Positions 55,402 through 64,000 of a DNA stretch of 64,000 bases are shown in pieces. The notes below the pieces were generated by a model, which saw nothing but the letters and a program-made list of their open reading frames with translations, searched no databases and was not told the DNA's origin. The position numbers were made by a program, and so were the translations under genes. The DNA is from Bacillota bacterium (GTDB lineage Bacteria > Bacillota > Sulfobacillia > JAJZYS01 > JAJYTV01): assembly GCA_021793645.1 (NCBI GenBank), contig JAJYSJ010000010.1, positions 1 through 64,000 on the forward strand, written 5' to 3'. Position 1 is the first letter of the stretch, and each line of letters opens with the position of its first letter.

Positions 55402-56475
<1,074 letters not shown>

Positions 56476-57663: not shown

Positions 57664-58092
57664 TTAGTGTGACGCGAACGGGTTGCGGATTGTCAGTCCA
57701 TCGATGTGTCGGCCATGTGAGAGGTCCTCGGACCACACGACGGAGCAACCCAAACGTACGGCGCTCTGGATGACCATGGCATCCCAAAACGCAAGCTGTG
57801 AGGCAAGATGGAGTCGTATCGCTGACTCCTCGTCCTCCGCCGTCGGTGCGTGAACTGCCCAGGTGGAAAAGTCGCGTACCAGCCCGAGCGCAACTTGCCC
57901 GTCCACACGGGGTGTGACTTTGTGCGTGAGCGTCACGTAGAACTCCTGCAGCATGCTGAGGAAGCCGGTGCGTTCCAGCCACAGCCGACGGATCAGCTCG
58001 GCTGCATCGTGATGTTTGGCGCCTGCCGACCCATCGAAGGCATGGACGAGAATGTTCGTGTCTATGAACTCCCGTGTCCCGCTAGCGCTCAT
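57664..58092 (-). CDS. PIN-domain toxin (VapC-like)
   Basis: A 142-residue PIN-domain RNase toxin. The first acidic residue is in FIDTNILVHAFDGS, followed by LSMLQEFYVTLTHK, LASQLAFWDAMVIQSAVRLGC and VWSEDLSHG, giving the usual three to four acidic metal ligands. It would cleave tRNA or mRNA when the antitoxin is degraded. ATG 58092 lies inside the last codons of the antitoxin (11-nt overlap), the standard toxin-antitoxin coupling. The 159 bases between it and the Mn-catalase gene hold nothing I can support. Confidence 0.85.
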   Translation of the reverse strand: MSASGTREFIDTNILVHAFDGSAGAKHHDAAELIRRLWLERTGFLSMLQEFYVTLTHKVTPRVDGQVALGLVRDFSTWAVHAPTAEDEESAIRLHLASQLAFWDAMVIQSAVRLGCSVVWSEDLSHGRHIDGLTIRNPFASH

Positions 58093-58324
58093 TCAGATCT
58101 TCATGGCTCGTGGGGATCTCTCCACGGGTACCAAGGTCCAGGCCGCGATCCAACCAGGCCAGAGACCGCCGACGTGCGGCTTCGTACTGGTCTTCCTGGC
58201 GCACCAGATCGGTTAAAAGGAAAGTAAGAAGGCTCGAGATGGAGGTGCCGCGGCGGGCCGCGATGATCTTCACCTCCTGCAGGACCTCCTTGGGCAGCGA
58301 CAGGGTGACGTTCTTCATCTCCAA
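58082..58324 (-). CDS. Ribbon-helix-helix antitoxin (CopG/VapB-like)
   Basis: An antitoxin of about 80 residues. It begins MKNVTLSLPKEVLQEVKIIAARRGTSISSLLTFLL, the typical RHH strand plus two helices that binds DNA as a dimer. The tail (DRGLDLGTRGEIPTSHEDLNER) should wrap the PIN toxin. TTG 58324 is 8 nt after GAGGAG; ATG 58318 is also possible. It is the partner of the overlapping PIN toxin, and the frames are intact, unlike the AbrB/Doc pair. Confidence 0.78.
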   Translation of the reverse strand: MEMKNVTLSLPKEVLQEVKIIAARRGTSISSLLTFLLTDLVRQEDQYEAARRRSLAWLDRGLDLGTRGEIPTSHEDLNER

Positions 58325-58372
58325 TAGACCCACTCCTCACGCGAAGGAGTGCATCACGCGTTTGCGTGAACC

Positions 58373-58543
58373 TCAATGCTCTCTGTCGCCCCCCGGGGAC
58401 GAGTTGCCGAGGAGGTCGCCAAGGCGCCGCGCCGCGTGACGCTTCGTGTCCTCCAGCACATGTGCGTAGACCTTCGCCGTCAGTGCAGGACTCTCGTGGC
58501 CTAGGTGCGCTGCAATCTCCCTGATCCCGACGCCTGCCTGGAG
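58373..58543 (-). pseudogene. C-terminal fragment of a tyrosine integrase
   Basis: The reverse strand reads QLQAGVGIREIAAHLGHESPALTAKVYAHVLEDTKRHAARRLGDLL and then ends. This is the LGHxS...T..Y.H tail of a phage-type tyrosine recombinase including the nucleophilic Tyr. A TAA interrupts the frame right before it, and the catalytic core domain is missing. It is the scar of an older integrated element. Confidence 0.72.
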
Positions 58544-58736
58544 CTGTTACAACGTGTAGCTGACCTATCGTAATCAAGCCCTAAGGGCGCCGCTCCTGAG
58601 CCTGCCCGACTTCCGGGTGTGATGTATAAATCCGGATGGAAGGGGGTCGGGGGGAAACCGAAGGTTGCCCCCCTGGTGGGTGCCCTGCAGACCGACGAGG
58701 GACGTCCAGGAACCGAGAACAGGGCCACCCGACGAG

Positions 58737-58778
58737 CCAGAATTTCGGACCGAGGCGGTGCGGCTGGTGCGAGCGTGA
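58737..58778 (+). mobile_element. Possible IS3-type transposase N-terminal scar
   Basis: The forward frame reads PEFRTEAVRLVRA then TGA. This resembles the beginning of IS3 OrfA transposases (S-P-E-F-R-x-E-A-V-R-L-V). Only about 13 codons remain, so the call is weak. Confidence 0.35.
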
Positions 58779-58804
58779 TTTCGCGCGACTTGGGTCGCAC
58801 TCCC

Positions 58805-58867
58805 TTCGAGTACCTTTCGGTTCGGGGGCAACGACTCCGTTTCGAGTACCTTCATTTTCGAGGCAAC
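58805..58867. repeat. Imperfect tandem direct repeat, 36-bp period
   Basis: TTCGAGTACCTT begins at 58805 and again at 58841, and both copies end in GGCAAC (58832 and 58867) with TTCG before it. The two units are about 28 bp long and sit exactly at the edge of the recombinase block. Confidence 0.6.
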
Positions 58868-58908
58868 TCAAGGGCTTGATTATAGTAACGTGCCAGAATT
58901 ATACTATT

Positions 58909-59214
58909 ATGGCTGAAGATCATAAAGGGGTGCGTGACCTGACCGTAGACCTGTTGCCGCATCTCGAACCGACTTACTCCATCACGATCCATAAGGCGCA
59001 GGGCAGCCAGTTCCGCCGCGTCATCCCAATACGGAAGACCCGGTTGCTCGACCGCGCGCCGTTCTACACGGTAGTCACGCGGGCGGAGCAGCAGGTAATT
59101 CTAGGCGGCGACGTAGCAGCCGCACGCGCAGCGGTCGGGGCACGGCCCCACGCTACCCGCCGACGGGACGCACTAGGATCGCTGCTCAATAAGATCGTCG
59201 CGGGGATGGCCTGA
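58909..59214 (+). pseudogene. 3' fragment of a RecD/UvrD-type DNA helicase
   Basis: About 100 residues remain: LLPHLEPTYSITIHKAQGSQFRRVIPI, then FYTVVTRAEQQVILGG. This is the UvrD_C_2-type end of superfamily 1 helicases (the Y-A-x-T-x-H-K-x-Q-G-S motif and the V-T-R-A motif). The Walker motifs and the rest of the protein are absent. ATG 58909 opens the frame but has no ribosome binding site. The stop codon overlaps the next start (TGATG), so a full helicase was once cotranscribed with the recombinase genes. The 5' end was lost at the AT-rich junction. Confidence 0.7.
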
Positions 59215-60689
59215 TGGCTCACGTCACGGTGATCGCCAAAGTGGTTGGCGACAACACCGGCATTGTCGCCGAGATCCCCGTCATCCTTACCGACTACGGC
59301 CCACTGATGCCTTTGGTCAGGTACATCATGGCAATCAAGTATGTGCGCTCCGCCAGCACCATCACAAAAATCGCGCAGTCCGTAGGTCTACTGCTCGACT
59401 ACATGGATGCGAACCACGACTGCTACGACGACCCCAGGGAACTCTTTGCCGGCTTCGTCCAGCGGCTCTACACCGGCACCGTGTCCGATGATGGACAGGA
59501 CCCGAGCGGCCTGTACTGGAATGGGCGCACGCCAAGCGTGGTGCGGCAGATGGTGATGCAGCTCTCGGCCTTCTCCGACTGGATGGCCAAGGAGCAGGAC
59601 ACCCAGCCGTTCAACCCATGGCGGCAGGCCACCCACGCGGAAGAAATGCTGGCGTGGGCGGCATGGCACCACAAGCGGGATCGCGCGTTTCTGGCCCATA
59701 CCTAGGATCGCAACACCGCCTCACTCAGGATGACCCGCGCCCGCAACGTCCTTCTCAAGAAAACTCCGATCATCGACCACGACAAGGCAAAGCACTTTCC
59801 CGATGAGCGTTTCCACGACCTGATCTTCCGCGGCTTCATCATCCCCGGTAAGCAGAAGAGTGCTAGGATCGAGGAACGGCTTAACTTGCGCGACATCCTT
59901 ATCACCCTGCTCATGCACTACGGCGGACTGCGCATGTCCGAGCCCTTCCACCTGTATGTGCATGACGTGATGCTCGATCCATTGAGGGACGGCACGGCGT
60001 GGGTGCGGGTGTATCACCCGAGTCTAGGACAGGCTCCCAACGATTGGCTTGATGCCAAAGGCAAGCCGATCAAGTGTAACCGCGACGAATACCTGCGTGG
60101 TAAATGGGGTCTGCAGCCGCGAACGGATTATCCAGAGTCACATCAATGGCACGCCGGCTGGAAGAACACCGTCGTCGATGGAAGCCTTCACTTCATCGAC
60201 GTGAATTGGTTCCCGACCTGGGCCGGAGAGTTGTTTTGGAAGCTCTGGGTCTTCTATATGGCGCAGCGCGCCCAACTGCAATGCGAGCATCCCTTTGCCT
60301 TCGTCACGCTAAAAGGTAAGCCTTACGGCATCGACAGTTTCCAGCGCGCCCACAAGACGGCGGTGCAGCGTATCGGGCTCCAGGCCGCCAAGGTGCTCGG
60401 CACGTCGCCTCACGGGCATCGCCATGCCTACGGGCAGCGCTGCCGTGAGGCCAACCTGGACCCCATCGTCATCAAGAAGGCCATGCATCATGCCTCGCTG
60501 GAATCGCAGGTGGTCTATACCGAGCCGCCGCGCGCAGCCGTGATGCGGGCACTGGAGAGCGCCATGCAGCGGCACCGGGACGAAGAAAACGCCTTGCCGC
60601 CGCCGGACTTCCTGTCATACGGCTTCCAGGACGTCGACCCGCTGGGCCTTTTGAGCGGCTCGAACCCGAAGTTGTTAAGGAGGAGTTGA
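59214..60689 (+). pseudogene. gmtY: Tyrosine recombinase GmtY-like, interrupted by one in-frame TAG
   Basis: A tyrosine recombinase of 491 codons. All catalytic residues are visible: Arg 240 in YGGLRMSEP, His 400 and Arg 403 in SPHGHRHAYG, His 425/426 in MHHASLESQ, and nucleophile Tyr 435 in VVYTEP. The N-terminal 160 codons form a core-binding domain (IKYVRSASTITKIAQSVGLLLDYM). Codon 164 is TAG (59703-59705), and the same frame then runs on cleanly. As I recall it, the sequence and the three-gene order fit the Gamma-Mobile-Trio recombinase GmtY. ATG 59214 overlaps the helicase stop. A CAG-to-TAG change would explain the interruption; read-through or a sequencing error are alternatives. Confidence 0.75.
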
Positions 60690-60690
60690 T

Positions 60691-63623
60691 GTGCCGAAGA
60701 GTATACCTCTCGATCCCGAGTTCCGATTTCTTATCGAACTCGAACCGGCCTTCGAGCCCTGGCGCCAACTTGCTGCCGAGTGGTGGGCGCAGCAGACATC
60801 CGACCGCGAAAGCAAGCACGCCGCCTTATCGACCTTCTTCGTGCGCTACCTGCATGAGCTGGGACTCGATACGTCGCCCAAGGCGCTGTTCCGGCGGGAC
60901 GCGAGATTACCAGACCTGTTGGCGGTGCTGGAATCCGGCCATACCAGCGAACGCCAAATCGCGAAGCAGCACGACATCATCAGCAACTTCGTCGACTGGG
61001 TGCTGCGCACGCATCTGGCCGATTTGGACGAGGAAGGTCATCGCGTCGTGCCGGCGCATTTGCGCCATCCCTTCCCGCGCCTTCGATCAAGGGTAGTCAA
61101 TAAGAAGTCCGACCTGACCTTCTCGCATGTGCGGACGCTCGATCCGAAGATGGGCGATTGGTGCGACCTCGCCGCCGAGTGGATGCAGGCTCAAAAAGTA
61201 GGCGTCTCTATGCGACGGCAGGCCATCGACAAACTACTCGACCTGTATATCCGTCAGCGTAATCTGCCGCGCAATCCGACTCAGTTCTTGAAGCGCGATG
61301 TGGACCTGCCAGACTACGTCTCTGTTTACCTGGAGGGCAAAGGAAAGGGGAGTACCACGCTAGCTAGACTAGACACGACATTAGTCAACTACGCCTCTGC
61401 ATTCATCGATTGGGTACTCACGCAAAAGCTCGGCATCGAAGATAACCGCGGCCATCGTCGCGTTCCACCAGAGTTGCACAATCCGATCCCGCGATTGAAC
61501 TATAAGGGGATGACGACGGAAAACGAGACGGTGCGGTCGCCCCTGTCCATCCGCTATATCGAGGAACTGCGCAGGCTGCTGTGCGAGGGGCCAACTTTCC
61601 GCGACTGGACCTGGGCCCAGCAGGCAATAGATGGTGGGCATAGGGGTGGCGATTGGTTCGTAGTTGATTCCTCGGTCGTGAATCCCGATGACCCGGATTG
61701 CGTGTGGCGGAAGCGGGAGGCCACCACAAGAGAGCGGGAAGAAAAGGGGCTGCCGGAAGTCATCACCGAACTGTGGTCCCCCGTGCGCGCCGTGGCGCTC
61801 TACCTGAAACTCGAACTGCCACTGCGCACCTTCCAGGTCCGCATGCTGGACTCGGGCGAGGCGGACACCTGGCGCTACGAGCATGGGCCGCAGGGCGGCA
61901 TCCTCGTGCGCAACGTCTCGCCGCTGGCGCAGGGTAGCGACGTGCGCCCCTATCAGCGCGGGGTGTTCCATCGCACGCAGGGCGAGGCCGGCGCGGGGCT
62001 TTACATCAACACCAACAAGACCGCCGACATCAACAGGGACGAGAACGACAAGGGCTACGTCATCCCCTGGGCGCATGAGGCCGCGCTGTACTGGTTGGAA
62101 AAACTCCGTAACTGGCAGGAGCGCTACAACCCGATCACCGAACCCACGCCATGGGTCAGTCTTGATCTAAAACACTTCGGGAGGACCCGCCCCATCCCGA
62201 GGTCTTGGAGGCACGCGGGACGGCCTGTTTCTTATTCCGCGATCCAACGCGCGAAGGGGATGACCGGCAAAAGCCTGTTGCGAACAACTTGGAACGAATG
62301 TGGTACAAGTTGCTCGCCCGCCTCGGACAGCGCTGCCTGGATCGAGGCGAAACGCTGGACGACGGCACGCCGATCCGGTTCGTCCATCCGGAATCGGACC
62401 ACCATACCTTCTACCCCCTTCACGCCCTGCGCGTATCGCTGATCAGCTACCTGGTGCTGGATCTCCGGCTGCCGCTGCCAGTCGTGTCGAAGCTGATCGC
62501 GGGCCACGCCCGCATCATCATGACGCTCTACTACACCAAGTTCGGCAAGCGGTACATGAGCGAGGTGATGGCAGAGGCCGAGCGCAATGCGGTGGAGGCG
62601 ATCCAGACAAACCACCGGCGCTTCTTGATGGATGCGACCTACGAGCAGGTCGGCCGTCGTTTCGCCTCGCTTTCCGAGGACGCGATACGCGCCGCCACAG
62701 CCAACCAGTCCGCCGCCGCCTTCGTCTTCGAGGACAAGGGCATCTGCCCGGTGGGCGGGGGCATGTGCGATGTGGGCGGGGAAAAGCTTGGCCTACTTGC
62801 ACCGGGGAGTCCCGTCCACGCCCCCGTTCCGGGCTACCCGACCGAGCGCAACTGCGTGCGATGCCGCTTCTTCCTTTCCGGTCCCGCCTTCCTGCCTGGC
62901 CTCGTGGCGCACTACAACACCCTCAGCGAAGAGTCCCATCGCCAGAGTGGGCGCTTCAACGAGATGGAAGCGAAGGTGAGGGCGCTCGAAGATCGCCGTT
63001 ACGACTGCGAACGCGAGGAGCGCCCCTTCACGGAGACGAACGAACTGGAACGCCTGGCACAGCGCCGTGACGACGCGGCCCAGGCGTTCGGAAAGCTGAT
63101 CAATGACATGCAGGCGACGTACTACCTGATCGAGCGTTCGCTGGAAATCGCCCGGAACGCCGAGAAGGACGAAGTACAACTGGTCGCTTCAGGCAACATC
63201 ACCGACCTCAAGACCGCATTCATCGAAACCCAATCGGAACTGCACCAACTAGAAGTCGTCTGCGAAAACGCCGTAATCTACCCCGAGACGGACGCAAGCT
63301 ACGCCGCCATCCGGCGCTCACAGATCCTTGACGTCATGCTGCGCTACAACCACATGGAGCCGGTATTCATGCGTCTCTCCTCCGAGCATCAACTGCTGGC
63401 GGGCAATGCCGTGATGCAGCTCATCCAGGCGCGCACCGGCTCGCTGCGCGGGGCGCTGGAGTACGCTGAATGCCGGACGAAATTGGAGGATCTCGGACTC
63501 ATTGAGGAAACCTGGGACACCATCGACGGTGTCGTGGCGGGCACACCGGCCCCCGCCATCATCGACTCGGCTCGTTCAGCCCGAGCGCTGCCATCGACTA
63601 TCGGAGACGGCCATGCATCCTGA
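60691..63623 (+). pseudogene. gmtZ: Large recombinase GmtZ-like, one frameshift
   Basis: A protein of about 977 residues in two frames. GTG 60691 follows AAGGAGGA and lies 1 nt after the gmtY stop. The first frame runs through two N-terminal helical repeats and LYLKLELPLRTFQVRMLDSGEADTWRYE to LDLKHFG. A 1-nt deletion near 62166-62185 shifts to the next frame: EVLEARGTACFLFRDPTREG, then HALRVSLISYLVL and GHARIIMTLYYTKFG (the H-x-x-R and H...Y residues of a tyrosine recombinase), a Cys-rich GICPVGGGMCDVGG with NCVRCRFF, and a long coiled coil. The total, 2933 nt, is one short of whole codons. It fits the second recombinase-like gene (GmtZ) of the trio. The C-terminus overlaps gmtX by 11 nt. Confidence 0.7.
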
Positions 63624-64000
63624 CCAAATACTGGAACAACTCAAGGCCACGGCGAACACTCGCAAGCAGAAAAACCTCGATCTGATCCACGCCGTTTGCC
63701 GGGAGCAGTACGAGCGCGGTAGCCGGGACTTCTCGGTGGCGACCATCGCCCGGATCGCGCACGAACGCGGCGGCCCGACCAAGGGCTCGATCCACAACAA
63801 GACAGGTGACGACTTCAAAGCCATCATCAAAGCTTGGGCCGAGCACACGGGCGGCGTGACCCGCAAGGAGCGTAGGGTCAGCGAAAACCCGTATATGGCG
63901 CTAATCGAGAGGATCGATAACCCCGCCGTGCGCTCCGTCATGGCGAGCCTTCTAGCCGAGAACCAGAAGATGCGGCGGCAGATCAATCTGCTCAAGGCCA
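63613..64000 (+). CDS. gmtX: GmtX-like protein, cut by the window end
   Basis: The third gene of the trio, open for 129 codons to the window edge. It begins MHPDQILEQLKATANTRKQKNLDLIH and continues VCREQYERGSRDFSVATIARIAHERGGPTKGSIHNKTGDDFKAIIKAW, a helix-turn-helix-like pattern, followed by NPAVRSVMASLLAENQKMRRQINLL, the start of a coiled coil. I recall GmtX proteins starting in this way. It should be a small DNA-binding partner of the recombinases. ATG 63613 overlaps the gmtZ end by 11 nt, so translation is coupled. No interruption is seen in the part present. Confidence 0.72.
   Translation, partial: MHPDQILEQLKATANTRKQKNLDLIHAVCREQYERGSRDFSVATIARIAHERGGPTKGSIHNKTGDDFKAIIKAWAEHTGGVTRKERRVSENPYMALIERIDNPAVRSVMASLLAENQKMRRQINLLKA

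Follow-up and report, generated by a model that had tools for sequence, protein, structure and literature searches.

Gamma-Mobile-Trio (GMT) islands, reportedly described by Mahata and co-workers in Nature Microbiology in 2024 (9:3268), are known chiefly from Gram-negative bacteria. Other mobile systems, including integron attC recombination, group IIC introns, and IS elements in REP loops, have folded DNA or terminator hairpins as their targets. Operons with several tyrosine recombinases carry an island in the GInts, according to a section of PMC5385486, and in the RIT elements, according to a section of PMC10214605, which also describes SE and Tn554 as having target specificity.

This paper describes a GMT locus in the genome of a spore-former, encountered in a stretch of 64,000 nucleotides (the window) that represents bases 1-64000 of a contig of 108,455 bp. 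We consider it quite probable that the locus is a degenerate GMT island from a betaproteobacterial lineage, with a Tn554/SE-like mechanism, which landed in an inverted repeat within an integrase gene and subsequently decayed. The window thereby adds a decayed GMT copy of betaproteobacterial type in a spore-former, and the analysis of its relatives addresses the question of how defence islands choose landing sites in unrelated hosts.

Profile searches with NCBIfam models revealed that positions 59214-63999 code for GmtY, GmtZ, and GmtX, all three of which matched GMT models, as the original prediction had proposed; the Y-Z-X order with 1-nt spacing and 11-nt overlap is likewise borne out by the open reading frame coordinates. 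The tyrosine recombinase gene gmtY (59214..60689, plus strand) comprises the open reading frames 59214-59705 and 59730-60689, a single frame that is broken by an in-frame TAG at 59703-59705. It ends 1 nt before gmtZ (60691..63623, plus strand), which encodes a large tyrosine recombinase and contains a frameshift between approximately 62163 and 62205. The 11-nt overlap lies between the end of gmtZ and the ATG of gmtX (63613..64000, plus strand), which is cut by the window end and is whole and unbroken on the contig (215 codons, with its stop at contig base 64260). The two GmtY fragments matched NF040693 with 164.6 bits (E 4.6e-48) and 375.8 bits (E 3.8e-112), of which the latter alone exceeds the cut-off of 340. 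Two adjacent GmtZ fragments matched NF047926 (E 7.9e-151 and 7.3e-147; 503.6 and 490.5 bits), covering positions 1-342 and 358-784 of its 784, and each fragment alone remained below the cut-off of 600 because gmtZ is split. At a cut-off of 40, GmtX matched NF040692 with 153.7 bits for the part within the window (E 4.9e-45) and 242.5 bits for the whole gene. Among the Pfam families, GmtY corresponds to Phage_integrase and GmtZ to Integrase_2; GmtX gave no telling Pfam match, and its predicted fold (pLDDT 83, pTM 0.41) no PDB match at E <= 0.001.

The integration core that had been predicted thus contains all three genes, but gmtY and gmtZ are broken. In the related loci, which are the best 80 of the 185 that were confirmed, an unbroken gmtY is present in 72 of the 74 that allowed a judgement and an unbroken gmtZ in 73 of 80, and since nearly all relatives are without these breaks, they are not features of the family. 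The R, HxxR, H, and Y residues of GmtY, which are invariant across 11 aligned rows and are taken here as catalytic, are all located in its second fragment. In gmtZ, the frameshift leaves the conserved LPLRT arginine on one piece and the HxLR, GH, and Y residues on the other, and therefore neither piece is likely to be active. As a separate observation, GmtZ carries an additional N-terminal copy of its own first domain (window 60691-61500): residues 19-141 form a second match to the start of PF13009, the NCBI model begins at residue 141, and the extra copy is aligned in the nearest relatives and not in most others. In six related loci (L070, L072, L077, L081, L086, and L088) a small open reading frame ending in GGGGA(I/V)DL directly precedes gmtY; the one from L072, the only one of its kind that was scanned, had no Pfam match.

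The host genome (3.4 Mb, 94 contigs, 96.3% complete, 1.07% contamination) encodes a Spo0A of 386 bits at a cut-off of 200, which supports the spore-forming host that had been proposed, and host DNA flanks the block on both sides. Genome G002, which belongs to the same genus as the window's genome, as do G001 and G003, aligns at contig positions 58066-58546 and again from 66641, with approximately 690 bp of its own sequence between the two aligned stretches; alignments to G003 and to G005, which is of a different genus, likewise end at 58546. The interrupted gene encodes a tyrosine integrase on the minus strand and is open in G002 (328 codons), G003, and G005. On the window's contig its C-terminal part is found left of 58546 (58380..58546, minus strand) and its N-terminal part, recognized by alignment to G002, from 66641 onward, past the window; therefore the 8.1-kb block interrupts the gene, part of which is missing. 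The left border of the block lies at 58546/58547, and a module placed at 59214..64000 is consequently correct for the start of the trio but not for the border. The island of approximately 8.1 kb consists of a helicase relic, the broken gmtY and gmtZ, an intact gmtX, and two cargo genes. Filler sequence between the left end and the helicase relic (58573..58911) contains pieces repeated elsewhere in the host's own genome, with 5 further matches, for example 85% over 75 bases on contig C12. The surroundings include a toxin-antitoxin pair immediately left of the island, with a PIN-domain toxin and a ribbon-helix-helix antitoxin (window 57664-58333, minus strand), a small gene pair to its right (contig 66970-67690; L002:10970-11690), the second gene of which has a weak ParE match (E 0.017), and tRNA genes for Asn, Met, and Val approximately 1.1 kb right of the N-terminal integrase border. 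Elsewhere, G001, G002, and G003 have a second sigma-70-type gene directly after rpoD, 81-82% identical to the query (window 55402-56475), and among the matches listed no such second gene was found in the window's genome.

Directly before gmtY, and absent from the original prediction, lies the C-terminal relic of a RecD2-like helicase (58912..59214, plus strand; TIGR01448, E 9.6e-14, profile positions 633-706 of 713), the stop codon of which overlaps the gmtY start by 1 nt (TGATG). The same overlap occurs in L018 and L023, and a full-length helicase open reading frame (734-893 codons) directly precedes gmtY in 11 of the 80 related loci, while in 12 others, 11 of which are labelled gammaproteobacterial, the helicase is located behind gmtX. 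In a Thiobacillus locus (L033) a similarly short helicase tail stands before gmtY. The relic points to a RecD2-VPA1267 pair adjoining the trio in 23/80 loci: every one of the 23 loci with an adjoining RecD2-like helicase also has a VPA1267-like gene, and L082 has a VPA1267-like gene without a helicase match. The NCBI VPA1267 model scored three of four such proteins above its cut-off of 90 and the fourth (L044) at 85.7; the gene is not new, since this model already exists, and the terms 'Gamma-Mobile-Trio' and 'helicase' already co-occur in the open-access literature.

Cargo had been expected past base 64000, and two genes are indeed present there on the same contig: a gene of 130 codons that weakly matches a zinc ribbon (contig 64418-64810), and an open reading frame with a C-terminal Mrr-type nuclease domain (contig 64657-66423; PF04471, E 2e-21). 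The latter also matched the ZorD model (E 1.3e-11) and type IV restriction models, and its putative role is likely in defence; a search with this protein found itself alone among 7996 candidates scored.

In a maximum-likelihood tree of the C-terminal part of GmtZ from the 80 loci and the window, the window joins three proteobacterial loci (L022, L024, and L025) at 100/99 and is contained, at 97/97 and 99/97, in sets of 9 and 11 rows that otherwise consist entirely of Pseudomonadota. Judging by genus, we take the named members of this clade to be Betaproteobacteria. The nine loci labelled Bacillota stand elsewhere in the tree, apart from the window, and by its GmtZ sequence the window copy belongs to the betaproteobacterial type rather than to that of the Bacillota. 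Given this nested position, the donor was likely betaproteobacterial or shared that GMT type, and a cross-phylum transfer from a betaproteobacterial lineage into a spore-former is likely, the direction of which we infer from the tree; as the tree holds the best 80 of 185 loci, an unseen Bacillota branch is possible. The extension of the host range beyond Gammaproteobacteria that had been suggested therefore holds in that the host is a spore-former, but it is not unique, because 9 of the 80 related loci were already labelled Bacillota.

The closest protein (P0002, 81%) is encoded on an 18-kb contig. Of 61 genomes searched for GmtX (the host's own and 60 relatives), the own genome alone contained it. 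With the GmtZ model, 198 of 398 genomes of the phylum gave a match at E <= 0.001 and none a match over the cut-off; among the matches listed, the only long ones came from the host's own broken copy, and the others, at 39.8 bits or less, were not counted as GMT. Ordinary phage integrases were dismissed as the closest relatives, as the relatives are GMT loci and 50,697 phage records contained 0 relatives of GmtZ. In a plasmid collection, 149 records with GmtZ relatives were encountered, 91 of them predicted to be conjugative, and plasmids are a possible route of GMT between hosts.

Related islands turn alike at a sharp point, which is the left end. This end reads TTATATATAGTA in gamma-type islands, approximately 126 bp before gmtY, TTATATAAGGTA in Bacillota loci, and GTTATATGGYGTAGGTAGTC in betaproteobacterial islands, where it precedes the VPA1267 gene or gmtY. 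Contigs L036 and L078 open with the left end and break off within an inverted copy of its motif. The inverted left-end motifs led to the right ends of the Bacillota type (TTTTTACCTTATATTC) and the gamma type (TTTTTACTRTATACTC), the latter with 13 occurrences in 8 of the 11 genomes searched and 0 in a reversed control. Direct repeats of the left end behind gmtX were also considered, and none was convincing, the ends having proved to be inverted; for the betaproteobacterial type, no right end was accepted in the 14 loci scanned. In L068 the right end is on the same 520,345-bp contig as the left end, and in L093 it is the only right-end match in the genome; right ends without a usable left partner (L133, L134, L135, L139, L141, and L143) were not counted.

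With the ends in place, the host flanks of all 11 islands whose ends had not been paired by complementarity, i.e., nine relatives (L035, L040, L043, L046, L061, L066, L068, L076, and L093) and two Escherichia coli islands, were found to form an inverted repeat around a loop of approximately 6 nt. L069 and L080, which had been matched to right ends by complementarity, were left out of this strict count. The nine islands had flank-pairing scores of 20-42, whereas 3000 random sites averaged 10.2 and had their 99.9th percentile at 28; a score as high was reached by 1.7% of the random sites for L035 and by no more than 0.2% for each of the other eight. Swapping of flanks (110 pairs, L069 and L080 included) gave a mean of 13.2 and a maximum of 33, and for 3 of the 11 left flanks in this set one swapped partner paired as well as the true one. 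When both spacers were fixed at 6 nt, 7 of the 11 islands of the strict count scored 17-38 and the other four 0-5; these four regained 21-27 with spacers of 4-8 nt, and the loop is therefore approximately, not strictly, 6 nt. An A tract (at least 5 A in 7 bases) precedes the site in 9/9 islands and at 23% of random places, and a T tract (at least 5 T in 7) follows it in 7/9, counted without a control, so that most sites are terminator-like, a term that is judged here by the A and T tracts alone. The two E. coli islands, located at eno and at crcB/cspE, obey the same rule, and other strains have the empty sites: the joined flanks were matched over at least 80% in 4838 and 5361, respectively, of 5426 genomes. 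The empty eno site reads GCCAGC-CCGGAG-GCTGGC, and in the island at this site CCGGAG is retained on the left side, with AAGTAT on the right. In open-access titles and abstracts, a scope that leaves the primary GMT paper outside, no report was found that GMT islands target terminators. As an aside, in one Vibrio genome (L069, L080, L138, and L142) two GMT islands have flanks that pair across contigs, which points to recombination between the two islands or to misassembly.

The window's own left end is located where the hairpin rule predicts. The best plus-strand match in the window to a profile built from 8 betaproteobacterial left ends falls at 58546, where host homology stops, and 58546..58572 (plus strand) is the likely left terminus of the GMT element; 3 of 127,948 positions on both strands, this match included, score as high. 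Judged by score, however, the motif is weak: an earlier four-row profile gave 7.9, compared with a shuffled mean of 7.0 and a highest of 10.8. The hairpin at this site was read from the genomes of other species: positions 58541-58546 (GAGCTG) are the counterpart of the inverted-repeat loop seen in same-genus genomes. G002 has, at the corresponding position, a stem with a 6-nt loop that terminates precisely at the junction, and 5 of 10,722 positions score as high; in G003 this was 9 of 10,951, and in G005, in which the hairpin is absent, 568 of 19,900. The stems at the junction in G002 and G003 indicate that the probable landing site of the element was an inverted repeat within the integrase gene. 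In the window, the right half of the repeat and the right end of the element are lost and the left end alone survives, and a candidate right end near 66595 was dropped for its weak profile score of 3.6. Of the att sites that had been anticipated upon extension to the right, the left end and the host boundary at 58546 were therefore recovered and the right one was not.

The predicted mechanism of GMT islands resembles that of Tn554 and of the strand-biased circularizing elements. The two tyrosine recombinases would join the inverted ends of the element via a spacer of approximately 6 nt, after which strand exchange would take place in the loop of a host inverted repeat; the left end would then retain the old loop, and the right end would carry the donor's spacer. 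As the host stems differ in letters between sites, it is probably the shape of the hairpin by which the target is recognized, and the RecD2-like helicase may assist in exposing the strand that folds. The window element would have landed in the inverted repeat within the integrase gene; later changes likely removed a VPA1267-like gene and most of recD2, likely broke gmtY and gmtZ, and likely took the right end together with approximately 690 bp of the integrase gene, so that the island, by its broken recombinase genes and missing right end, is likely an immobile relic. Recognition by hairpin shape, which we infer from the differing letters of the stems, is the novel part of this scheme, and other terminator cues are possible. 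In its widest form, in which GmtY and GmtZ enter hairpin loops of approximately 6 nt whatever the stem, terminators serve as landing pads in any phylum, and the RecD2-like helicase and the VPA1267 coiled-coil protein expose the strand, the proposal may equally well prove right or wrong. If GMT recombinases do read hairpin shape, terminators would be a general landing pad, and island borders would be predictable from the left motif, the right motif, and the pairing flanks.

It could be argued that flank pairing merely follows from insertion downstream of genes, and that terminators are found by other cues, such as AT-rich tracts, supercoiling, or stalled transcription. The A tracts before all nine islands, set against 23% of random places, fit such cues; however, the elements lie inside the loop and not merely near a hairpin, and the window's site is within a coding gene in related species, which leaves this explanation somewhat unlikely. 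A chimaeric block, produced when assembly or binning fused a contig of betaproteobacterial origin to one from the spore-former, would agree with its betaproteobacterial nearest named relatives and with a host assembly in 94 contigs. It is nevertheless highly improbable, since host DNA in the gene order of G002 is found on both sides of the block on one contig, both borders fall within one host gene, and the filler at the left border has pieces repeated in the host's own genome; the GmtZ fragment protein also occurs on 2 contigs, which may stem from the same reads. The same flanking host DNA led to rejection of proteobacterial contamination at the contig end. Very unlikely, too, is an element that is still active, with readthrough of the TAG and a frameshift that is either programmed or an artefact of assembly: the reading frames resume cleanly and gmtX is intact, but the breaks are missing from nearly all relatives, recD2 is truncated, and the right border is gone with part of the integrase gene. 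A decayed island of betaproteobacterial type is therefore the preferred reading.

The window locus agrees with the known GMT islands in the order and tight spacing of gmtY, gmtZ, and gmtX, in the matches of all three to the NCBI models, and in having cargo that includes a nuclease gene. It differs in its spore-forming host, its GmtZ of the betaproteobacterial branch, the recD2 relic in front, the broken gmtY and gmtZ, and the lost right end. The hairpin-directed elements depend on other enzymes, and integrons combine a single recombinase with gene cassettes. GInts and RIT elements have three recombinase-type genes, and GInts prefer the end of ssb genes, as stated in a section of PMC5385486. 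The Tn554/SE class is characterized by the 6 bp of the target at the left end and a foreign 6 bp at the right end, by strand-biased copy-out without an empty donor site, and by a TnpC or Srap-type third protein. A similar 6-bp exchange is seen at the eno island of E. coli, and the window retains the left side of it only. Unlike in SE and Tn554, the host stems of GMT islands vary from site to site, and VPA1267 and RecD2 partners accompany the trio in 23/80 loci. GMT would thus be a separate family within the Tn554/SE working class, likened to it by mode of working and not by sequence.
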